The notes below the pieces were generated by a model. It was not told the origin of the DNA, did no database searches, and saw only the letters and a program-made list of their open reading frames with translations. A stretch of 37,810 nt of DNA from a virus: positions 1-37,810 of IMG/VR virus record IMGVR_UViG_3300043427_001081, one strand, 5' to 3'. Positions within the stretch are counted from its first letter, which is position 1. Every line of letters begins with the position of its first letter. Below, in pieces: positions 6,321-37,774 of this stretch. A program made the position numbers and the translations under genes.

Positions 6321-6998
6321 TCAAGAGCAGACTATCACGCGTCTTGGGTTGATTTCCCTGATGGCAAGATGGACGGCGGCACGGTCATCAGTAGCAGAGT
6401 TGAATCCGACGTTTCTGGGACCTTGGCCACCAGTCGTTTCTCTCACCATTGCGGCACCATAGTTGCCAATGTCAATGCTATTTAGTATAACGTTACCAGT
6501 CCCAGCAACCGGAGGCGCCTGTAGACCGCTGTACGCCCCTGCGTATCGCAGACTAAATGACCCAGGCCAGTCGTCCGTGACGCTCTGGACCGGCAGCGTA
6601 CCATCGTTTGCCAAAGTGACTATTCCATCAGGATTCACTTCTGTATCATATAGTGCCCTCACTGTGGCGGCAGTTGCATACATAACAATTGCACTGTTGG
6701 TCCGGTTGACGGTAATCGTTTGGTTGCCACTGCCAAGGCCTGATCCAACGAAGAAGGTATCAATTCTGCCTGGTTCGCCAGCGGTGTCGGTAACACTACC
6801 TGCGGCAATACCAGGAACGTTTACACCTCCATAAGTAACGGTGCTGACTAGGTCGGTTGTTGAGTTAAAAGTATAAACAAATACCAATACACCTTGCGGA
6901 GTACCTGTCTGTGTATGTGTCCACGAAAACGCTGCTTGGTTTGTTGAACCAGTTGTACCGGTATGCGATTCACTTGCAGCGCTATGTGTTACTGCCAT
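6321..6998 (-). CDS. virion protein, beta-rich, function unknown
   Basis: 225 residues, with the ATG overlapping the stop of the giant collagen-like gene (TGATG), so the two are probably co-translated. It is Thr, Gly, Ser and Val rich with alternating hydrophobics throughout (for example GVLVFVYTFNSTTDLVSTVTYGGV), which indicates a beta-sandwich. There is no signal peptide or membrane segment. Proteins of this sort occur beside phage fibres as decoration or fibre-binding subunits. I assign a structural role by position and composition only. Confidence 0.65.
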   Translation of the reverse strand: MAVTHSAASESHTGTTGSTNQAAFSWTHTQTGTPQGVLVFVYTFNSTTDLVSTVTYGGVNVPGIAAGSVTDTAGEPGRIDTFFVGSGLGSGNQTITVNRTNSAIVMYATAATVRALYDTEVNPDGIVTLANDGTLPVQSVTDDWPGSFSLRYAGAYSGLQAPPVAGTGNVILNSIDIGNYGAAMVRETTGGQGPRNVGFNSATDDRAAVHLAIREINPRRVIVCS

Positions 6999-9900
6999 CA
7001 GAATTTAAGAGATGCATGTAGCTGAGTTACCGTACCACTGGAGGCTGTCGTAGTCAGCCATACGAAGCTATTTGCAGCGACCGAGGCATTGTTGAACGAT
7101 GTAATTGTCTGACCGGTTGATGTGCTTGTTACAACCGTACCACTCGTGACCACCTCCGTTCCAGCAGCGCTAAAATCAGATCCGTGCCTAATGGAAACGG
7201 TCACGCTGGGAGTCGTGCCAGCAACGACGTACTCGAGTTCAGTTATTGTAATAGCACTTGTGGTATAGAAAATTGCAATCTTTTCAGCATTCGTTGGGAA
7301 CAAGACAGTAATTGCCTTCGGTGCCGCAGGTCCAATTACCCCAGTAGCCCCGGTAACGCCCGTCGCGCCTGCGTCGCCAGCGACGCCAGTTGCGCCAGTT
7401 GCGCCAGTCGGACCATCGATCCCGTTAACTCCAGTTGCTCCAGTGACACCAGTTGCTCCGGTTGCACCGGACACACCTACGACTCCAGTCGCGCCAGTGA
7501 CGCCGGCTACGCCAGTTGCTCCTGTTGCGCCGTCTACTCCCACACCAGTAGCGCCAGTTGCTCCAGAAATGCCAATGACACCCGTCGCACCTGTAGTGCC
7601 GACACCCGTAGCGCCAGTTGCGCCAGATACCCCGACAACACCCGTAGCCCCTGTTGGACCTATGACACCAGTGGCGCCAGTCGCGCCAGTAACCCCTATA
7701 ACACCAGTCGCGCCTGTGGGCCCCTCGACTCCTGTACTTCCTTGGATGCCAGTTGCACCAGATACCCCAATAACACCAGTGGCGCCTGTCGGACCGGTAA
7801 CTCCGATAACCCCCGTCGCCCCCGACACGCCAATAACCCCGGTCGCTCCAGTAGGGCCGGTAACTCCAGTTGCCCCTGTCGCACCAGAGACACCAATAGC
7901 ACCAGTAGCGCCAGAGACACCGATGACGCCCGTCGCACCAGTGGCACCTTTTTCTGCGATTAACGTCCAGAATGTTCCTTCGCTTGGCGTGTCGCCAACG
8001 TTGCCGCCATTCGAATTTATGCGATACCACGTTTCTCCATTAAACGTAGCGACATCACCAACTGCGTAAGAAGCCCCGCCGCTATATGCGCCAGTGAAAT
8101 TCCACAGGGCATCGGCGCCCGTGGCACCAGTAGCGCCAGACACCCCGATAACACCAGTCGCACCAGTGGCACCACTTGCCCCAATAGCGCCAGTCGCCCC
8201 AGAGACACCGATAACACCAGTTGCACCTGTAACACCTGTGGCACCAGTAACGCCAGCAACACCGGTTGCCCCAGTGACGCCAACAACACCGCTTGCTCCA
8301 GCGGGGCCCGCGACACCTGTTGCCCCAGTTGCTCCGGAAACACCTATGACACCAGTAGCGCCCGCGACACCGGTAGCACCAGTAGCGCCAACAACGTTTG
8401 GACCACTCAGCGTTCCGATTATCGTTACATTGCCATCAAGTGTTATCGTGTCATTGGTTGGCGAAATTGTTATGCCGCCGGATGTTGTCGAAATAGTGTC
8501 ACTGGAAACGCGAACAGTCCCAACTGTTGCCGAGGTTGGCGTAATAGTAGAAGTGTTCGTGCCATCTGTTATCTCAAGGTTTGACAGGCTGGAAATATTA
8601 AAGTCTTGGGAACCGAAAACTACGGCGCCATTTTCTTCATCAACGTAGAAGAGGTTCCCTACGCGGAAGTTGCCAGACTGGTCACTAGACACATAGAAGC
8701 ATCTACCGCCATTGACCTCGATTACTTCGTTGTCCGGCAGCACCAGAGACTCGTCCTGCGAGAAGTCTTTACCGGAACCAATGTGTCCAAAGTTGTAAGC
8801 AAATAGTCTAATCTTTACGCCAAGCCCGTCACAGCGAACACCTTCTGTTCCGAATACCGATGCAGAGCCGATAGAGCGCATATCGGCGCCAAATTCTGCG
8901 TAATCAGCAAGGGTTATCTGTGAAGATGTAATAAGAGAGGTTCCGCTGGAGGTAGCAAATCTGACATCCTGTACAGCGGTTGAATCATCCTTGATGATTA
9001 CACTATTATTGCCTCCATCGAAATGAAGCAGTAACTTAGTATTGCTATCATTAAGTGCAGCAAAGGTTGGAACGGTGCTGGTGGCACTACCCTGATTCTT
9101 GATGACAATATCATCGATATTACCAGCCAAGAAAGAAGCATTTGTAATGCTTCCACCAATACGAACCGGCTTAGCGGTACCGTAGTTATTTGAATCCGCA
9201 TAGTTAGACCCCTCTTGTGTTCCATTCAGGAACAGACGAGTAGTCCCGGAGACGCGGGATACGTAGAAGTAGTACCAAGAATTTGCGGCTAGTGTTGTTG
9301 TACCCGTAATTCGGTCAGATCCATCCGTGTAGTAAGCGAGTACATTACTGGGAGTTACACGAATAACTGGAGCAATATCGGTAGTGAGTCCATTGCGAAG
9401 ATCTATGAAGGTTTGACCGATGCCAAGTTGAGTTAAGTAAATGAAGCCACCGATACTGAAATCACCAGTACCAAAGCCAAAATTAGTATTGGATTCTACT
9501 TCTGCGTAATCACCTACTCCATCCAGCGCAAGAGAAGCGCTGCCAAATTTTGACCTTGAGGTATCAAGGGCAGCGTCGCCATATACGGCAACCGTATTGT
9601 TTTGCTGGGATGCGGCAGTTACGAATGTCCCTATTCCTTTGTTGTTCAGCAGAACCGTGCCAGAGGAGTAAGAAGAAATAGTGCCGTAAGCGAGTGCCTC
9701 CTTGAAGGAGACATTGCCTGACGTAGAACCGGAGACTGAATCGGTAACAAAGAAATTATCAGGACCAGTTACATTTACTGAATAGTAATTATCAGTTGCG
9801 GTTCCCGAGGTAAAATCGGCATAGATCTTGTCATTTGTCGTAAGCCCGTGATTAGTTGAGGTGACGTTAATAGTCAGTCCCGTACGGGAATACGTGCCAC

Positions 9901-12184
9901 TTTGAGTGATGTTATTCAGGTAATAAATAATATCACCACTGGTCGGCGTCGTACCAGCGCTAATGTTGGCAACCTTGATCTTTGTCTTGCCCGCTCCAGA
10001 CCTACCACTTGCGCCTTCTTTTGCGTCAATGCCTCGGCTAGCAAAATAGGTAAAGCAATTAACCCATTCGGCTCTCGCCCCATTCGTCATCTCTAGGGCG
10101 ACGTTATTAGGCGTAATGAAAGTGCATTCGTTAAATAGTATTGCTGCCTGAAGGCTTGCAGCATTCACAAGCGACCCATCAATCTTAGCCCCGCGCCCTG
10201 CTTTAAATGTGGAGCCGCCAGGGTTATGTATGGTATCAAAACCATATGGGTCGGTTGCGGTTATTTCACTCCCCCTGTTAAGTACGGTAACACGCTGAAC
10301 ATATGGAGAACGCAGGCTGGTAGTGGAATTGGTAGCGAAGCTAATACCAATTCCCGGCTCGTAAAAATTGCCTATCGTTAAATCTTGTATTCCGCAATCG
10401 CCATTAAGTAGGAAGCCATTATTCTGTTTTGTTCCAGCAGTTGGCTGGATAAAGGTCGAACGAAGACCTGCCCCATTAACCGCAACTCCACCAGGAATCG
10501 TGAGGGGGAATGTTTCAGAATAAGTTCCGGGGCCGATTCGAACCGTATCACCACTGGTAGCAATGCTTAAAGCAAACGCAACAGTCGCAAATGGTTGGTT
10601 GAATGACAGCCCATCATTCGCGTTTGATCCGTCCGTGGAAACGTAGTAGGTATTACCCTCGGACGCAGGCAAGGAGGCACCAGTTGCGCCTTGTGGTCCT
10701 GTCGCTCCAGTTGCGCCATCAATGCCCGCCACGCCCGTCGCGCCAGTCGCGCCATTACTTCCGGCGGGACCAGTAGCTCCAGTTACGCCGGTTGCGCCAT
10801 CTATTCCGCTGGGGCCGGTTGCTCCGGTGACGCCAGCAACACCGGTTGCCCCAATATCTCCCGCATCACCGGTACGGAAAAAGCTAAGAGCTAGTCCAAT
10901 GCTATTAGCAGGAAGCGTTCCGGAAATGTAAGTGACACCAATTTTGCGGTAGCCTGTGGCGACGGTGACGCTATTGACCTGGAATAAATTAGTGACGTTC
11001 GAGGTGCTAAGAGAAGCTTGGATTAGCAGATAGCCATCAATCAGACTGGTGGAATCGTCCCAAGTCGCGTACCATGCAGTTTGGTTGGCACTGGCTGCGT
11101 CTAGATCATCAATAAAGATTTGGGTAACAGAGGAGATCGTTGCACTGTTGTAACGCACTGTGCCGGTACCCGGGTCGGCATCGGTTACAGTTGTGCTAAA
11201 GGTGTAACGAACGCCACTCCGGACTCCGGTGGCGCCAGAGACCCCAATTACTCCAGTCGCGCCGGTAACGCCAGCGACGCCAGTTGCGCCGGTTGCACCA
11301 GTGGCACCCGTGCCTCCGGAAACGCCAGTAGAGCCCTGTATTCCAGTGGCTCCAGTCGCGCCCTCTACACCGGTAGCTCCCTGCACACCTGTAGCCCCAG
11401 TCACGCCACTTGGGCCGGTTGGCCCTTCAACGCCCGTGCTGCCGACCGGGCCCGTGGCACCGGAAACACCGGTCACTCCAGTGGCTCCAGTGGCTCCTGT
11501 TATACCAATAGGGCCAGTGCTTCCTTGGATGCCCGTCACACCAGTAGCGCCAGTAGCACCGGTAACACCAGCACCTGTTGCGCCGGTTATGCCAATTGGA
11601 CCGCTGACTCCAGTGGCGCCAGTAGGGCCAGCGATTCCAGTGGGTCCCGTCGCGCCACTAATGCCAATAACGCCAGAAGGGCCTGTCGGGCCTTCTGCTC
11701 CCGTCGCGCCAGTTACTCCAGTCGCGCCAGCAATATTTCCAGCACTAATCCAATCATTGCCATCATAGCTCCAAATATCGCCTTGAGTTTCGTCTATTAC
11801 AGCATTGCCGACTACCGCTCCCGGAAACGCTGTATTCAGTGTCGTTTCTGGGTCGATGCCTACCGTCGGAACTGATCCAATGATTAACGCAGGGTTGCCG
11901 GTCACGCCAGTCGCACCCGTTGGCCCTTGGATACCCGTAGCGCCCGTCGCCCCGCCGGGGTCACCCTGCGGTCCAGTTGCGCCAGTGATACCTACACCAA
12001 TAGGTCCAGTGGGGCCAGTTGGGCCAATTGGCCCGGTGGAACCAGTGGCGCCATCGTCACCAAGGATACCATCGGTACCGGCAGGTCCCTGAGGGCCGAC
12101 GATGCCAACACTGACGGTTTCTACATTGCCGTCATCAATAATAGTAACAACTGATTCAGTTGTTATGTTTACGATATCGGTCAT
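6998..12184 (-). CDS. giant collagen-like tail fibre with beta-helix and LamG domains (1728 aa)
   Basis: A very large modular fibre. Approximate residues: 1-29 N-terminal beta segment; 30-98 first Gly-X-Y run; 100-150 a W-rich module (IIGSVPTVG...[12 protein letters not shown]); 153-322 second Gly-X-Y run; 323-435 globular domain; 440-505 third run; 510-900 right-handed beta-helix of the DUF1565/pectate-lyase type, opening [20 protein letters not shown]; 915-1100 LamG/concanavalin-like domain; 1265-1360 fourth run; 1365-1415 carbohydrate-binding-like module ([19 protein letters not shown]); 1416-1625 fifth run; 1626-1728 C-terminal beta domain. The triplets are unusually Thr-rich (GAT, GPT, GVT) with almost no Lys or Arg. 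The start ATG overlaps the upstream stop by 4 nt (ATGA). It probably forms a long trimeric fibre with glycan-binding knobs. Confidence 0.88.
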
Positions 12185-17355: not shown

Positions 17356-18738
17356 CTACGGGATTGCAGCGGCAATATCATTGACGAGCGTCGTGACGCG
17401 GGAGTCAAGCAGGGCCAGGTCGAGAGATCCGCCGATGGAGTAGAAAGCGAGGCGGCTATTGCCAGCCCCGCCGAACGGAGTGCTAAAAATCCTAAATAAA
17501 CCAGATTTTACGGCACTACTTGCTTGCGTTACAGTGGTACTGCCGAGGTTGGGAGTTCTAAGAATGAAATTAGAGCTGTTACTTCTTGAAGCTCCATATA
17601 AACCAGTGCCGCCAAATGAACTTGAAAGTTGCGTATTGCTACTGCCCATGCAGCAAGTATTAAATGCACTTGTGCTTCCCTGCCTGATAAAATAACGAGA
17701 TCCATTGAAGGAAGTGTCGCCTCCTCCTAAAAGAGTTTCATCGGCACCGGTTCCCAATGCAGTTACATGCGCAGACATGTGTGCATTGTTTTGCGAATCT
17801 TGATTGTTGTCGTAAGTTAAATCTAATCTCTTCGTGGAACCACTTCCTTGGAGCCCTGTCTTGCGGTCGTAGTCAGAAGCAGCCCCTGGATGGGTTTGTG
17901 TCGGTGGCGTGAAGTTGGCGGTGTAGCGGGCTACGCCCTTGGTGATACGGAAGTCGTCAATGTAGCCGTTAAAACTTTCATCAGCACTAAATAGGTTTGC
18001 ATTGTTACCGACTCCCACTCCCACAGGTGTAAATGCAGGCGCGGTGAAAGTTACAGTAGACCCGACTTGAGTTCCATTGATAAACGCCATTGCGGAGCCA
18101 GCACTAACACTAAGTGCAACATGTTGCCACGTATTTAGGGCTAATGTGCCTCCGGATGTGTCCACAGAGGCAATGCCCGAGCCAGTGTCATGCCTTGTGC
18201 CCCAAGCCAGCGAAGATCCGTTATGACCTATATAGATAATACCAAAAAAAACTACAGCAGACGCAGAAACAGAGCTGATAATGTTAAACCCAGTTAGCTC
18301 AACCGGATAAATCCAAGCCTCAAATGTATAAGTATTAGAGCTGAATGAAAATGCTCCTCCCGTATTCGGCGCGGTGAGAGCATCGCCATTCCCGTCAAAA
18401 ACCGTACTTGCCCCGCCAAACTTGCTTTGCGTTGTACTTATCTGGGCGTTGCCCGCTCTTGTAACTGTTAGTGCGTTGTTGCTGCTATCCGTAAACGTCG
18501 TGCTACCATTTGCGCCGTTCATGCGCAGTAACAGTGATACATTTGCCCAGTGAGGGTCGGCGGGACCCCAGAAGTTGAAGTTGGTGGGCGCGGTACCAAC
18601 CAGGGGAGTCAACGCTCCATCCAAATTGTTCCAGCCAGCCATTATACAGCTTGACTTAATGCTATTCCAGGTGCCATCAGCTTTGCAGCCTCTGATGAAC
18701 GCGTCGAATGCATTAACGAGTTCTAGAGTTTGTGTCAT
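17356..18738 (-). CDS. LamG-domain tail protein, product of tandem duplication
   Basis: 460 residues containing a LamG/concanavalin A-like domain at about residues 60-265 (SLLLRMNGANGSTTFTDSS opens it). A beta-rich C-terminus ends in AFYSIGGSLDLALLDSRV. It is clearly homologous to the last ~490 residues of the upstream hub gene, sharing GALTPLVGTAPTNFNFWG and many long identical stretches even at DNA level. The ATG overlaps the hub stop by 4 nt (ATGA), and SD GGAGG lies 9 nt before it. LamG domains bind carbohydrate, so a receptor-binding role at the tail tip is probable. Confidence 0.82.
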   Translation of the reverse strand: MTQTLELVNAFDAFIRGCKADGTWNSIKSSCIMAGWNNLDGALTPLVGTAPTNFNFWGPADPHWANVSLLLRMNGANGSTTFTDSSNNALTVTRAGNAQISTTQSKFGGASTVFDGNGDALTAPNTGGAFSFSSNTYTFEAWIYPVELTGFNIISSVSASAVVFFGIIYIGHNGSSLAWGTRHDTGSGIASVDTSGGTLALNTWQHVALSVSAGSAMAFINGTQVGSTVTFTAPAFTPVGVGVGNNANLFSADESFNGYIDDFRITKGVARYTANFTPPTQTHPGAASDYDRKTGLQGSGSTKRLDLTYDNNQDSQNNAHMSAHVTALGTGADETLLGGGDTSFNGSRYFIRQGSTSAFNTCCMGSSNTQLSSSFGGTGLYGASRSNSSNFILRTPNLGSTTVTQASSAVKSGLFRIFSTPFGGAGNSRLAFYSIGGSLDLALLDSRVTTLVNDIAAAIP

Positions 18739-21700
18739 GATAAGGTGCCTCCAGCGGCGTAACCCGCATTGACGTATTTCAAGGTATCGATGTCATATGT
18801 GCTTCCATCGAGACCTGTATTAATGGCAAAAGCCATCTCGGCTACCAGTCTGTCTACCCTGGTGTCAAGCAGGGCGAGGTCGAGGGATTCACCGATGGAG
18901 TAGAAGGCTAGGCGAGCGTCTGAATACGTTGCGTCTATGCCTGCTTGGGTGGTGCCGTCCATCTCCCTAAATACTCCGTATCTAGCGTTAGCAGGAGCTT
19001 CAGATATCTGTGTTAGCGTTGAGCTGTTACCACTGTGGCGAACTACATAGGATCCGCTCGCGCTACGGCTGGTTCCCATAAATGCCGTTGCACTACCGGC
19101 ATTAGCAACTGATTGGAAGTCCGAGTTGACATTCCTACTGTATAAGGCGGAACTGTTGTTGTCCAATCTTCCAATACCCGTCGCTCCATCAGCATTACCT
19201 CCCGCCGATACATGAGCGGGAAAACGACCAACTGCTGAAGTCGGCGCAGCCGAAACCCATGCTGATAAGTGTCTGTTATCCTGCGGATCAGCATTGTTGT
19301 TCCTATTGCTGTTCAGGTATTTCGTACTTCCATCTCCGACTAGCCCTGTCTTTCGGTTGTAATCAGAGGCAACTCCTGGATGGGTTTGTGTGGGTGGCGT
19401 GAAGTTGGCGGTGTAACGGGCGACCCCCTTGGTGATGCGGAAGTCGTCCATGTGGCCTTGGAACGGTGTCAGCGGGCTAGCGGGGCCATCGGAGCCAATT
19501 GTCAATTGAGATGTAAAATCAAACAGCGCAGCCGATGAAGTTGTTGATGTACCTGCAATTCCGTTTAGGTAAGGCGTAAAAACATTGCCATTTCGCACAA
19601 GGGCAACATGTTGCCATGTATTCAATGTGGATGTTCCTATTGATACGCCAGACGCAATGTCCCAAGTGCTGCCGCCAGCCGAACTGAGGTAATAGAGCAG
19701 CGACGAGCCGCTTGTGATAATCGCGTATGAGGTATTGCTGCCGTCATCTGGATTGATGTGCTGCTTGACGCCCGTAAGGCTAGTGGGGTAGAACCAGTAC
19801 TCAATGGTGAAATTGCCGCTGCCAAACTTGAAAGCAGCGTTGTTTGCTACCTTGCACCAATCGCCATTCCCATCAAACAATCCACTAGACCCGCCAAACT
19901 TGCTCTGTGTGGTACTGATCTGTGCGTTGCCGAATGTTGTAACGGCAAATGCATTCTGGCTGCTATCAGCAAAAGTAGTACTGGCATTTGCGCCATTCAT
20001 GCGCAGCAGCAGTGACACATTTGCCCAGTTCGGGTCCGCGGCTCCCCAGAAATTGAAGTTGGTTGGCGCAGTACCAACCAGCGGCGTCAACGCACCACTC
20101 AGCGTGCGAGCACCGGCCAGAATGCAAGCCGCTTTAATTGCACTCCATGTTCCATCCGTCTTACAACCTAGTACGAAGTTATTAATAGCAGTCTTGACGA
20201 CTGTTTCCAGAGATTGGCCATCAGCGCTTTCCACGGCAGCGATATAAGTCAACGCATCCACGTCTAAGCCGGTGGATGGAGTAGTTGTTGGAGCGATAGC
20301 TTCGACAGCTATCGAAGCAACAGGCGCCAGAACGGAGACATTCTGAGGACTAGTTGACTCCACTGCCGGGACGAAAGCGTCGACAGCTATCGAGGAAACG
20401 GGTACGAATAGCGAGACAGCTTGAGGTGTGCTCGACTGAATCGTCAAGGCAGGAGCTTCAACGGTAATACTAACAACAGGATTCAAGATGAACGAGCCAA
20501 CAGCCCTTCCTACCGTTGGCAATGGCGATGCGACAGCGACATTCGTGACTGGCACCCGTGCGATGTAAGAGCCGACAAACGGCACGACAGGAGCGATGGC
20601 AATTAAAACGGGAGTTGCAATCACCGCGCTGCCGATTTCTGTACCGACCAGGGGTACGGCGGCCTGTATCGACATGTCAATAGCACTAACACGAACATTG
20701 ACACTATTGGCCAATATTGGCACGTTGCCTGCTATTGCAATGCTTGAAAATGGCATTCCGATCGAGAATGTCCTTTCGACCACCGATTCGGTCGAGATTT
20801 TTAGTGCTGGTACTACAGTGAAAAGCTCCAGTGTATAGTCAAACTTTCTTACAACAGTTCCGACGCGTAATCGCCCTGTGTAAATCGCAATTTCGTTGTA
20901 GGGTGGTACAATAGTACTGGCTGTCGTGGTTAATCCTGGGGTAGGGCCTACATTGGTCCAAGTTGTACCGTTGTATGTCCAGAAGTTTCCTGTTACTTCA
21001 TCTTGGACGCCGTCTCCTGTATCTGCATCAGGAAAAGCTGTATTCAGGATTGACTGAGGTGTAGACCCTACCGTTTCAACTGATCCCACTACCTGCGTCG
21101 GCGCCGTATTCACCACCACTGGACTTTCGGGCAGACTCACAATGCCAGGAGCGACAGGGAACCAGAATTCTCCAGTTGTGCCACCAACCGCCGCCCAGAA
21201 TAAAGCATCCGTACTTGCTACGATACCGCTACTGTCAAAAGCCCAGCTTGCGCCATTCACACGATACAGCGCCGTGAGACCATTGGCTTCAACATAGATT
21301 GGTCCGAATGGCACCGTCGGCAATCTTTCTGGAGAAAGTTGCAGGCTAATACCGCTGCGGTTGCCGAGCAATAGTCGATTCTGCACTCTGCCATATTGCA
21401 TCGCCTTCTGTTCAGCGGCACTTCTGAAAGCAAAGAATGGCCCGCCCGATGGGCCCACAAATATATCGTCAGGTGCGTATGGCAGGGAGAACTCGATGCG
21501 GCGCTCTGCGGCAGCACTACCCAAGGCAAGCACTAACTCGCTTTTGCTTTCAGTGCTCCAGCCGTTGTTTGGATCACTTTCGCCTTCGCCGCCCGAGGCT
21601 GAAGAGGTAGCATTGTTGGCGCCAGCTTCTTTTTCTTCTTTCGTTGGCGATCCCTTTGCGTAATTTGCATTTATGCGTTCAGATTGCGGGGGCCTTGATT

Positions 21701-31329: not shown

Positions 31330-31505
31330 TTTGTTAAATAATAACTGCCATAGACTGCCTAGATTGGCTACTTCGCAGGAATCCTAGTTCGAGCAATCAC
31401 TAAAATGCAATGATTAAGCCTACTTGCATATCTTTAGAGACGACTGCTCAAAAAAATACACAATAATCAACCCAGACATCGATGATTTCGGGGAATTCTC
31501 TACCG

Positions 31506-31847
31506 ATGTACGAACACGTCTACGATTATTTGTGGAACATGGAAGCCCTAACACACAAGGAAGCAAAACGAAAGTGGAGACAATCCATTAAGGACATATG
31601 GAATAACGAGTGCGCATATTGCGGAAAGCCGCCTATCGACGATTCTAGCTTGACGCTTGACCACGTCAGGGCACGCTGTAGGGGTGGCGAAGACTTGAGT
31701 GCGAACATTGTGCCAGCCGACAGGGAATGCAATGCCTCCAAGGGCTCACAGGACTGGAGAGAATGGTTCAGGATGCAAGAATTTTACGAAGAATGGAGGG
31801 AGGAGAGAATCAACTACTGGCTCAAGTATGGTCAACTTCCGGGGTAA
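31506..31847 (+). CDS. HNH homing endonuclease, free-standing
   Basis: 113 residues from ATG 31506; ATG 31482 would add eight residues. It contains the CAYC knuckle at residues 36-39, the core LTLDHVRARCRGGEDLSANI at 49-68 with catalytic His 53, and the closing ADRECNASKG. Many relatives have CxxC at this last position. Here the first Cys is replaced by Asp (D72-R-E-C75), so the zinc site may be altered. The N-terminal HKEAKRKWRQSIKD helix resembles cyanophage HNH enzymes as I recall them. It is coded against the direction of the surrounding structural genes and ends 1 nt from the chaperone stop codon, the usual signature of a mobile homing gene. Confidence 0.9.
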   Translation: MYEHVYDYLWNMEALTHKEAKRKWRQSIKDIWNNECAYCGKPPIDDSSLTLDHVRARCRGGEDLSANIVPADRECNASKGSQDWREWFRMQEFYEEWREERINYWLKYGQLPG

Positions 31848-35309: not shown

Positions 35310-35424
35310 AAATATCCACAGATTTGTAAGGGGGGCTATCTGGGCCGCCGACGCCGGGAATCGGGGTGGGAGTACGTTTGTACTGCTCGACCGCCTCGAT
35401 GGGCTGATGGTGCGGGTGTATCAC

Positions 35425-35873: not shown

Positions 35874-36110
35874 ATGACCCGCACTGCCGACCTCGCCCGC
35901 CTCACCCTGACCTCCAACGTCGTCGACGTGTGGAAGGCTGCCACGCAATGCTTCGAGTTCGCTGAGTACATCGCCCAGCGCGATGGCTTCGACATCTCTG
36001 TGCTGGGCTCCTACCATGCGCTGCTGGCCGTCCGCCCTTGGGCCACTGTCGGGGTGGAAGCCGCCCCTTGGCGCGTCATCAGGGCAGCCATGGCCCGACT
36101 GGGGTACTGA
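35874..36110 (+). CDS. small protein, function unknown
   Basis: 78 residues from ATG 35874, chosen because the shared leader GTCAACACGGGATAAACCCC stands directly before it. Predicted helical (TSNVVDVWKAATQCFEFAEY), with a C-terminal basic amphipathic helix (APWRVIRAAMARLGY). The upstream part of the same open frame lacks a leader and overlaps the terminator, so it is excluded. Family not recognised. Confidence 0.6.
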   Translation: MTRTADLARLTLTSNVVDVWKAATQCFEFAEYIAQRDGFDISVLGSYHALLAVRPWATVGVEAAPWRVIRAAMARLGY

Positions 36111-36221
36111 TCAGCAACGCTGATACATCAGGGCTCCTTATCCGGGGCCCTCTCCCATCGACAATCCCGATACATCAGCAATCCTGATCGGTCAGCCAGG
36201 GATCCATCAGCATTCTTTGTG

Positions 36222-36239
36222 TTACGAATTGTTACAATC
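36222..36239 (+). promoter_or_regulatory. HLR1-like paired box, copy 3 (best match)
   Basis: GTTACGAA-TT-GTTACAAT. It departs from the HLR1 consensus (G/T)TTACA(T/A)(T/A)-N2-(G/T)TTACA(T/A)(T/A) at a single base. The second half is also an 11-bp palindrome, ATTGT-T-ACAAT. Confidence 0.5.
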
Positions 36240-36330
36240 CCTTGCGCCCAGTACAGGGCGTGATAGTGGGGTGGTGGGCGGGTGAACGGGGCGTTCACGA
36301 TCGCCTCACCTTGCCCATGCTTCGGCAAAT

Positions 36331-36369
36331 GGAACCTGCGAACGGCCCGCTGGTCGGATCGCAGGTGCC
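36331..36369 (+). repeat. hairpin repeat family, copy 1 (short form)
   Basis: GGAACCTGCGAA, inner stem CGGCC-CGCT-GGTCG, then GATCGCAGGTGCC. The 39-bp short form; the outer arms pair only partly. Confidence 0.75.
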
Positions 36370-36379
36370 CCGCGCGCGT

Positions 36380-36397
36380 GTTAAGAGTTGTTACCGG
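36380..36397 (+). promoter_or_regulatory. HLR1-like paired box, copy 4
   Basis: GTTAAGAG-TT-GTTACCGG. A TAGAAT -10-like box at 36425-36430 follows after 27 nt, and the gene at 36456 begins shortly after, closely matching the geometry at copy 2. Confidence 0.4.
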
Positions 36398-36455
36398 ACC
36401 GGCGGCTCGGGTCCGTCGATCGACTAGAATTCAGAGGTACCAAGGAAGGAATCCA

Positions 36456-36620
36456 ATGCTTTACTCCATCCGCTGCAAGCTGTCCGCCGTGAAGCATGGC
36501 CTGGCCTGGGTTCAGACCGAGCGACGCGAGTACCTGACGGGTGACCCACTGCCCGCCGTCTTCGCCGCTGGGTTCGCCTACCGCGAGTACTCCCTCGCCA
36601 AGGGGTGGGAAGTGCTCTGA
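36456..36620 (+). CDS. 54-residue small protein, function unknown
   Basis: It starts at ATG 36456 behind the strongest SD in this region, AAGGAAGGA, 5 nt upstream. Mixed strand/helix (MLYSIRCKLSAVKHGLAWVQ), with a pattern of aromatic residues near the C-terminus (AGFAYREYSLAKGWEVL). No Cys pairs or membrane segment. It is followed after 12 nt by repeat copy 2. Family not recognised. Confidence 0.6.
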   Translation: MLYSIRCKLSAVKHGLAWVQTERREYLTGDPLPAVFAAGFAYREYSLAKGWEVL

Positions 36621-36632
36621 TCTGAGGCACGG

Positions 36633-36678
36633 GGAACCTGCGAACGGCCCGCTGGTCGGAATGAAATTCGCAGGTACC
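36633..36678 (+). repeat. hairpin repeat family, copy 2 (long form)
   Basis: 46 bp. Outer arms GGAACCTGCGAA and TTCGCAGGTACC pair at 11 of 12 positions. The inner stem is CGGCC-CGCT-GGTCG, and the right side carries an extra GAATGAAA not found in the short form. Confidence 0.82.
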
Positions 36679-36696
36679 TAATTCCTAGCCTGCTGC

Positions 36697-36725
36697 TTGA
36701 CACCTTGGCAGCTAACGTCTAAGAT
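36697..36725 (+). promoter_or_regulatory. sigma70-type promoter
   Basis: Consensus TTGACA, 17 nt, TAAGAT, 26 nt before ATG 36751. It lies 19 nt after repeat copy 2. Confidence 0.75.
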
Positions 36726-36750
36726 ACACTCATCCAACAGGGACAAACCC

Positions 36751-36963
36751 ATGACCAACACCCCAGTCGCACCCTTCGCAGCAGTGGCCATTGGCACCAT
36801 CGCCGGATTCGCCATGCTGGTACCCTTCGGCGGGCTTCGCCTGGGGCAGCCCAGTGGCCCTGTTGTTCGCTGCAGCGTGATGAGATGCGAGACCGTCAAG
36901 ATCAAAATGGAACCTGCGAACGGCCCCTCGGTCGGATCGCATGTGCCATCTCAAGGGAGTTAG
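36751..36963 (+). CDS. small membrane protein candidate (70 aa)
   Basis: It starts at ATG 36751 behind the shared leader TCCAACAGGGACAAACCC. Residues 8-30 (PFAAVAIGTIAGFAMLVPFG) form one hydrophobic segment long enough to cross a membrane. The C-terminal part is basic. The last 18 residues are encoded by repeat copy 3, reading MEPANGPSVGSHVP near the end, so the repeat either was inserted into the gene's 3' end or extended it. A short membrane protein in an early phage region could act on host membrane functions; no family is recognised. Confidence 0.55.
   Translation: MTNTPVAPFAAVAIGTIAGFAMLVPFGGLRLGQPSGPVVRCSVMRCETVKIKMEPANGPSVGSHVPSQGS
36909..36947 (+). repeat. hairpin repeat family, copy 3 (short form, inside a coding frame)
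   Basis: GGAACCTGCGAA, inner stem CGGCC-CCTC-GGTCG, then GATCGCATGTGCC. It has the same length as copy 1. The GCATG in the right arm breaks the outer pairing. Confidence 0.75.
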
Positions 36964-37014
36964 TTATATTTAGTGGAAGCTTGATTTATACTTTTACAAT
37001 CCTAAATATAATGC

Positions 37015-37045
37015 TTGACAGGTGGCCGCTGGCCATGGTTAGAAT
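37015..37045 (+). promoter_or_regulatory. sigma70-type promoter
   Basis: Consensus TTGACA at 37015-37020, then TTAGAAT at 37039-37045, giving an 18-19 nt spacer. It lies 26 nt before ATG 37071. Confidence 0.6.
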
Positions 37046-37070
37046 GGAGGAGTCCAAAAGGGAACGTCCC

Positions 37071-37382
37071 ATGCCTCTGCTCTTCAGCGAGAACCGCCGC
37101 CGCGCCGACCACCGCAAGCCCTCGGTCTTCACCTGGTACGTGGAATGGACCATCGATGAGATCCGCAGCGAGGCGATCGCGTGGCTCATGTACGACGCCA
37201 AGGTGCCAGCCCTGCTCTGTACTGAGATCAGCTACATCCGTGAATGCGCTCCGCCGACTCTGCTGAGCATCGTATGCGACCCGGTGGACGCTTGTCTCCG
37301 CCCCATCGATGGCTGGGGTTGGTTCGAGTGCCTCGCCGAGCTTGAGCGGTGGGCGCTGGACTTCAACGAAGTCGACAGGTGA
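37071..37382 (+). CDS. 103-residue soluble protein, function unknown
   Basis: It starts at ATG 37071 behind the leader TCCAAAAGGGAACGTCCC, in which GGGA and TCCC can pair right up to the start codon. The N-terminus is basic (SENRRRADHRKP), followed by an aromatic helix-rich core (FTWYVEWTIDEIRSEAIAWL). Four Cys residues are scattered without a zinc-knuckle spacing. The C-terminus is acidic with Trp clusters (GWGWFECLAELERW). A perfect terminator follows within 20 nt, so the gene is its own transcription unit. Family not recognised. Confidence 0.68.
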   Translation: MPLLFSENRRRADHRKPSVFTWYVEWTIDEIRSEAIAWLMYDAKVPALLCTEISYIRECAPPTLLSIVCDPVDACLRPIDGWGWFECLAELERWALDFNEVDR

Positions 37383-37401
37383 CCCCTAAAAAATACCTTA
37401 C

Positions 37402-37427
37402 TCGCCCCACACCGGGGCGATTTTTTT
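37402..37427 (+). terminator. intrinsic terminator after the 103-residue gene
   Basis: TCGCCCC-ACACC-GGGGCGA is a perfect 7-bp stem, followed by seven T. Confidence 0.93.
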
Positions 37428-37429
37428 CG

Positions 37430-37456
37430 TACATGCAGAATTTAGTTTTGCATGTA
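37430..37456. repeat. inverted repeat next to repeat copy 4
   Basis: TACATGCA and TGCATGTA are perfect 8-bp arms around an 11-nt AT-rich loop. The right arm abuts repeat copy 4 directly. Confidence 0.6.
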
Positions 37457-37502
37457 GGAACATGCGAACGGCCCTGAGGTCGGAATGAAATTCGCAGGTG
37501 CC
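37457..37502 (+). repeat. hairpin repeat family, copy 4 (long form)
   Basis: 46 bp. GGAACATGCGAA, inner stem CGGCC-CTGA-GGTCG, the GAATGAAA insert, then TTCGCAGGTGCC. It ends 2 nt before the stop codon of the convergent minus-strand gene. Confidence 0.8.
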
Positions 37503-37504
37503 GT

Positions 37505-37774
37505 TCACTTCAGCGTTTTCCGCCCTCCCTCTCCATTCCTTGCGCGGTTCTTGCTGCGATGCTCCAGCACCAGTCCGCCATCCTTGGTGTGGCTCATGTC
37601 CCGGTTGCCCATCTTGCCTTCGAGGCCGCGAGCTCGGCGGGCTCTCCTTCTTTCGTTGTACCGCTCCCGCTCCCTGTCAGTCTTTCTCCGGGTAGCCTCG
37701 TACTCAATTTTTTTCTGATACGCCTCTGGATTCTTGCGATAGTAATCCATAGTGTTTCTTTTCTTTTCGGCCAT
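37505..37774 (-). CDS. small, very basic phage protein with a DMSHTKDGGLV motif
   Basis: 89 residues from ATG 37774. The N-terminal 50 residues are a Lys/Arg/Glu/Tyr-rich helix (TMDYYRKNPEAYQKKIEYEA). The C-terminus, about residues 59-80, holds DMSHTKDGGLVLEHRSKNRA. A small basic protein with an 'SHTKDG-x-LV...S-x-NRARNG' ending is, as I recall, recurrent in cyanophages and other tailed phages, usually of unknown function. A nucleic-acid-binding role is plausible from the charge. There is no HNH catalytic core, so I do not call it a nuclease. Confidence 0.7.
   Translation of the reverse strand: MAEKKRNTMDYYRKNPEAYQKKIEYEATRRKTDRERERYNERRRARRARGLEGKMGNRDMSHTKDGGLVLEHRSKNRARNGEGGRKTLK

Follow-up and report, generated by a model that had tools for sequence, protein, structure and literature searches.

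A strand-favoured hairpin repeat at the borders of individual small genes in viruses of Synechococcus-type cyanobacteria

It is an open question how the many small phage genes of unknown function are gained and lost; for the 'ORFanage' of cyanophage S-PM2, shuffling was left without a mechanism (PMC4503421). Here we ask what a hairpin repeat does that stands four times among small genes near the end of a viral contig. The window, by which we mean the whole 37,810-nt stretch of IMG/VR record IMGVR_UViG_3300043427_001081, comes from an S-CBS2-like cyanosiphovirus, its major capsid protein being 72% identical to that of the siphovirus Synechococcus phage S-CBS2. A preliminary description had listed four hairpin copies of 39, 46, 39 and 46 bp, and re-reading and a pattern scan found all of them in place. 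The exact pattern matches the 37.8-kb record four times forward and never in reverse, and the reversed control pattern has no match; the four-copy repeat is far beyond chance. As had also been read, the copies share GGAAC(C/A)TGCGAA and an invariant CGGCC/GGTCG stem, differ in their loops (CGCT, CGCT, CCTC and CTGA) and form two length classes. Copy 4 lies 308 bp from the window's end. The features of the locus are these, with arm types and relatives (G001, L107 and so on) described below:

35326..35375, + strand: G-rich leader, conserved, ahead of the array, GGGGGGCTATCT...GGGAATCGGGGTGGGAGTAC
36282..36302, + strand: degenerate site GTGAACGGGGCGTTCACGATC with a type B right arm
36331..36369, + strand: element 1, 39-bp form, type A arms (re-reading, pattern; RNA MFE -23.0 on the + strand vs -20.5 on the - strand)
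36456..36620, + strand: cassette 1 ORF, 54 aa
36633..36678, + strand: element 2, 46-bp form, with the loop of element 1 (re-reading, repeat family D13, pattern)
36697..36725, + strand: sigma-70-like promoter, TTGACA-17-TAAGAT, after element 2
36751..36963, + strand: cassette 2 ORF, 70 aa, running through element 3; family B, with homologues between elements in G001, G002 and L116
36909..36947, + strand: element 3, 39-bp form (re-reading, repeat family D13, pattern)
37071..37382, + strand: cassette 3 ORF, 103 aa; family G, with a homologue in the L107 array
37402..37420, + strand: separate intrinsic terminator before element 4
37457..37502, + strand: element 4, 46-bp form, between convergent genes, with equivalents in the same position in G001 and G002
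37505..37774, - strand: 89-aa gene, phrog_6437 (unknown), family H, its stop codon 3 bp from element 4

The three + strand cassette ORFs lack PHROG matches, and two further small genes separate the G-rich leader from element 1. Sites similar to the degenerate GTGAACGGGGCGTTCACGATC site also lie ahead of the L109 and L115 arrays. A conserved non-coding block precedes the first element both in the window (36110-36330) and in L115 (6580-6800); it combines recurring ATCAGCAATCCTGAT motifs with a -10-like box (TTACAAT) and a degenerate half-site that ends in GTTCACGATC. Elsewhere in the window, adjacent structural genes at 17396-18914 and 18382-20097 share segments of 80-85% identity, offset by ~1.48 kb (families D9, D12 and D14), which suggests a duplicated segment. 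Two tail genes contain long collagen-like (Gly-X-Y) coding repeats (1555-2640 and 7332-12062), and an HNH endonuclease gene (phrog_2214, 31482-31847) lies on the strand opposite to the structural genes around it; the matching neighbourhood of phage S-CRES1 has an annotated HNH gene.

Related phages carry the element, as pattern scans of viral contigs revealed. The core pattern, run against 2.9 million viral contigs, hit one genuine relative, G001 (93 kb), plus a chance match, L005, which lies in apparently coding sequence and was rejected. A search with the 89-aa protein yielded a second close relative, G002 (59.6 kb). In both, many elements adjoin the 89-aa gene, which lies reversed between elements there, and a second arm type became visible. 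Patterns for this type B matched at least 15 stretches, 12 of them on new contigs, and further patterns added L120 and L121. With near-identical contigs left out, we parsed 83 elements (82 distinct) from the window and at least about 15 other IMG/VR contigs; apart from the isolates, the contigs all come from metagenomes, many of them as fragments, and the choice of ORF was mechanical unless fixed by homology. The arrays hold 4-17 copies in related contigs, so that the earlier statement that the repeat is confined to 1.2 kb stands for the window but not for the family. A search for further arrays with a cassette protein returned already known contigs only.

Among known phages, the pattern scan found a solitary type B element in the isolates S-CRES1 and S-CRES2, where it adjoins syntenic neck and tail genes and sits at a reversed gene's 3' end, and none in S-CBS2 or S-CRES3. 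BLASTn of the window region against known phages gave no match, BLASTn of a single type A element gave chance matches only, and the GTDB genomes scanned with both types of pattern contained no element. The preliminary description named no known element as a match, and an Rfam covariance-model search returned only three weak matches, with E up to 5 and far below gathering scores. The repeat has not been described before; in viruses of Synechococcus-type cyanobacteria it stands at the borders of individual small genes.

Shortly ahead of the first element, most contigs have a conserved leader (GAGGGGGTNRTCT, about 20-26 nt, AATCGGGGGTGGGGG), which is also present in two relatives without detected elements, S-CRES3 and L143. 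The leader (GAGGGGG...AATCGGGGGTGGGGG) separates the structural operon from the small-gene arrays in the window, L107, L108, G001, G002, S-CRES1 and S-CRES3; it is possibly a late promoter, an origin or a packaging site. Contigs also repeatedly break off near elements: in 8/16 the end is no more than 120 bp away from one, and L138 and L142 stop at their first element or just short of it. The distance is at most about 40 bp in G001, G004, G009, G013-G015, L138 and L142, and L106, L118 and L142, from different samples, end at the same first element. Such breaks may reflect alternative cassettes in the population, or simply the repeat.

The parsed elements have a common anatomy. Type A arms, those of the window, read GGNAC(C/T)TGCGAACGGYCC..GGTC..TCGCAGGTNCC, and type B arms TGATCG(C/T)GA(A/G)CGGYCC..GGYC..TTGNTCACGATCA. 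Within an array all elements have the same orientation, with one imperfect opposite match; outside the array, G005 carries one element-like hairpin in the opposite orientation (6452-6487, GATCGTGAACGCCCAACGGGCGGTCGCCCACGATCA), its inner stem compensated. Intervals mostly measure about 225-600 bp and hold roughly one small ORF each, and the arrays usually lie beside the G-rich leader. Stop codons are often at or inside the element: TGA occurs in the left arm of 70/83 elements and, on the other strand, in the right arm of 67/83. Consequently, genes of either direction can end at an element. At the start codons, as in G002 51264-51740, common short leaders precede the ATG (ATCAAACCA...GGAGCCAATCCATG, or GGG...CCCATG) and look like a second conserved module.

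We then asked on which strand the hairpin folds. RNAalifold on the mixed alignment gave a weak result because the linker misaligns between subfamilies, and inner-stem pairs were counted directly instead. In 30 of the 34 unique inner-stem/loop variants the inner stem is GGCC/GGTC or GGTC/GGCC, so that the array strand has one G-U pair where the other strand has an A-C mismatch. The array strand folds more stably than its complement in 58 vs 21 comparisons as RNA (p 6e-6) and in 69 vs 12 as DNA (p 5e-12). It is thus the array strand, with its one conserved G-U pair, that forms the better hairpin, and the earlier proposal of a selected RNA or DNA hairpin holds as a real hairpin family with one strand favoured. 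The outer-arm changes of copies 3 and 4 are uncompensated, as first read, and this is general: within an array, arms of the same element match no better than arms from different elements.

What the preliminary description got right was the hairpin family; what it missed was that the element is a border between one-gene cassettes that show signs of shuffling. The 70 cassettes fall into 15 gene families common to arrays, plus singletons, and their order differs from array to array (L112, F-A-M-.-N-O; L114, A-O-.; L107, A-F; L109, F-A-E; L115, E-A). Cassettes shared by L112 and L114 are 91-93% identical, whereas their neighbours across the elements are 48-59% identical against a null of about 50%, and junction alignments show similarity falling to about chance outside the bounding elements. 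Families A and I occur in both gene orientations between like-oriented elements; among homology-checked cassettes, 8/42 have the gene reversed and the element not. These comparisons show that elements delimit intervals of about one gene and keep one orientation in each array, and that the genes recur in new order and neighbourhood with the change of sequence at the element; among related viruses, the same genes have apparently been reordered, gained, lost and flipped exactly at the hairpins. Family D corresponds to Kyano_Gp96 (PF23790), homologues of which occur in hundreds of cyanophage records, and the arrays therefore share genes with a wider cyanophage pool.

The element itself behaves differently from the gene. 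Core similarity is 0.83 for adjacent elements vs 0.70 for non-adjacent ones (0/5000 permutations) and falls with distance along the array from 0.82 to 0.65, while cores beside the same gene are 0.65-0.66 alike vs 0.62 for all pairs. This pattern looks like local duplication or conversion combined with gene exchange, in which the core would stay mainly with the genome and array position, and the gene and its adjoining arm would move.

How is the exchange carried out? In a direct scan, G001 codes for an exonuclease VIII-like protein and a Sak single-strand annealing protein, and Sak homologues occur in G001, G002, G005 and the isolates S-CBS2, S-CRES1 and S-CRES3; the window contig is without the Exo/Sak region. 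Tyrosine (PF00589), serine (PF00239) and Y1 (PF01797) recombinases were absent from the records searched, several of which are fragments, and so were the ERF and RecT families in our search. Given that tyrosine, serine and Y1 recombinases are missing from those records, that G001 has the Exo/Sak pair and that short, diverged sequences are exchanged by Rad52-like phage recombinases (PMC3945230), the most likely route appears to be exchange by homology or annealing at the repeated border. We consider it fairly probable that the repeat is a cassette-boundary hairpin, acting in the array-strand transcript and doubling as homology for Exo/Sak gene shuffling. Its primary job would probably lie in the array-strand RNA, as an inter-cistronic element that may stabilise 3' ends, direct processing or insulate neighbouring genes. 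Because each gene border carries the same ~40 bp, the exonuclease VIII-like/Sak pair that the phage itself encodes, to judge from its presence, could recombine phages there; whole genes would be gained, lost, reordered and occasionally flipped, with reading frames unbroken. Against this reading, outer arms do not covary within an element beyond the level of the array, and 39-46 bp is short for homologous recombination. A per-gene role at RNA 3' ends also does not fit, because of the 8/42 cassettes with only the gene reversed, and because some genes are reversed we keep an integron-like or DNA-level role under consideration.

At the DNA level, the element could be an operator or promoter: a phage regulator or sigma factor would bind its dyad and thereby switch the gene that follows. 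The arms are near-palindromic (TGATCGTGA/TCACGATCA), promoter-like sequences follow some elements and G001 encodes two sigma-factor-like proteins. However, element 4 lies between convergent genes with no promoter after it, many cassettes have only a short leader from element to ATG, and a bound duplex would not be expected to show the hairpin's strand asymmetry; we judge this reading unlikely. The position of the stem-loop at or overlapping stop codons, and its better fold on the array strand, would also suit a transcription terminator or attenuator at each gene end. Yet an intrinsic terminator is a GC stem followed by a U-tract, and a U-tract follows only 1/83 elements; the element is therefore not a classical terminator. 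Element 4, moreover, is not the terminator of the cassette 3 gene, because a separate, true-looking terminator precedes it, and reversed genes further weaken an explanation that we regard as very unlikely. It would be more surprising still if the repeat were a selfish REP/MITE-like sequence inserted between genes. Its copies are short, repeated, intergenic and alike within a genome, but they keep to one locus and one orientation instead of being dispersed, the records searched lack a Y1 (RAYT) transposase, the REP transposase family, and the GTDB genomes scanned lack a copy.

The layout of the arrays calls integrons to mind. Integron arrays have one ORF per cassette, a strand-specific imperfect hairpin at the gene end and a uniform site orientation, tolerate reversed ORFs and adjoin a leader. 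The cyanophage arrays share this layout: about one ORF per interval with the site at the gene's 3' end, a one-strand hairpin with asymmetric loops, constant site orientation though some genes are reversed, and an adjoining leader. The folded array strand could then be an attC-like single-stranded site where single-gene cassettes are cut out and put in by some recombinase of phage or host. Such a phage-borne system would resemble an integron, lack a known integrase and work beside a fixed leader. We find this distinctly unlikely. Unlike attC sites, the elements are shorter, come without an integrase in the records searched, have the RYYYAAC/GTTRRRY core boxes in 0/83 cases, and possess a core that stays with the genome and hardly travels with the gene. 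Nor do arms clearly match from one side of a cassette to the other (type A, p 0.05; types B, none). A match between each right arm and the next left arm, which integron cassettes require because they form circles, was hinted at by window copies 3 and 4 and was not significant overall.

Several phage repeat systems also offer comparisons. The promoter early stem-loops (PeSLs) of T4-like myoviruses (Arbiol 2010, Comeau 2014), for which modular gene shuffling between related phages was proposed (cited in PMC4503421 and PMC3950731), are likewise repeated intergenic stem-loops between small accessory genes, and comparative evidence gives the cyanophage arrays the shuffling too. As PeSLs are presented in these citing papers, the cyanophage element differs in occurring in a siphovirus group, in lacking an early promoter (promoter-like sites lie outside it, after some copies only), and in having about one gene per interval, stops in both arms and an orientation that follows the array and not the gene. 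The element works like the T4 PeSLs but falls outside the definitions of both the PeSL and the integron attC site. In Cluster K mycobacteriophages, ESAS stand before start codons beside the 13-bp SAS (PMC3203893); they too are genome-specific imperfect inverted repeats by small non-structural genes, mostly in one orientation, but the cyanophage elements lie at gene ends and have no SAS, the SAS GGGATAGGAGCCC matching the window once with two mismatches, located elsewhere and at chance level. The 17-bp palindromes of Cluster O mycobacteriophages (Corndog palindromes) also occur at many small genes, with deletions attributed to recombination between copies (PMC4351075), but they are perfect palindromes of unrelated sequence, also lie inside genes and have no fixed orientation. 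The intergenic repeats of halovirus HF2 (PMC8707807) resemble ours as repeated units conserved in related viruses; they differ in being promoters by reporter assay, and no hairpin cassette arrays are described for HF2.

In these arrays the joints between exchanged genes are visible: a ~40-bp hairpin bounds each gene, permits gene ends from either direction and marks where arrays differ. Visible joints make the question of small-gene gain and loss testable in isolates, with S-CRES1 and S-CRES2 carrying a solitary element and S-CRES3 the leader without one. The cassettes are, in addition, a ready list of exchanged accessory genes and candidates for functions in host interaction.
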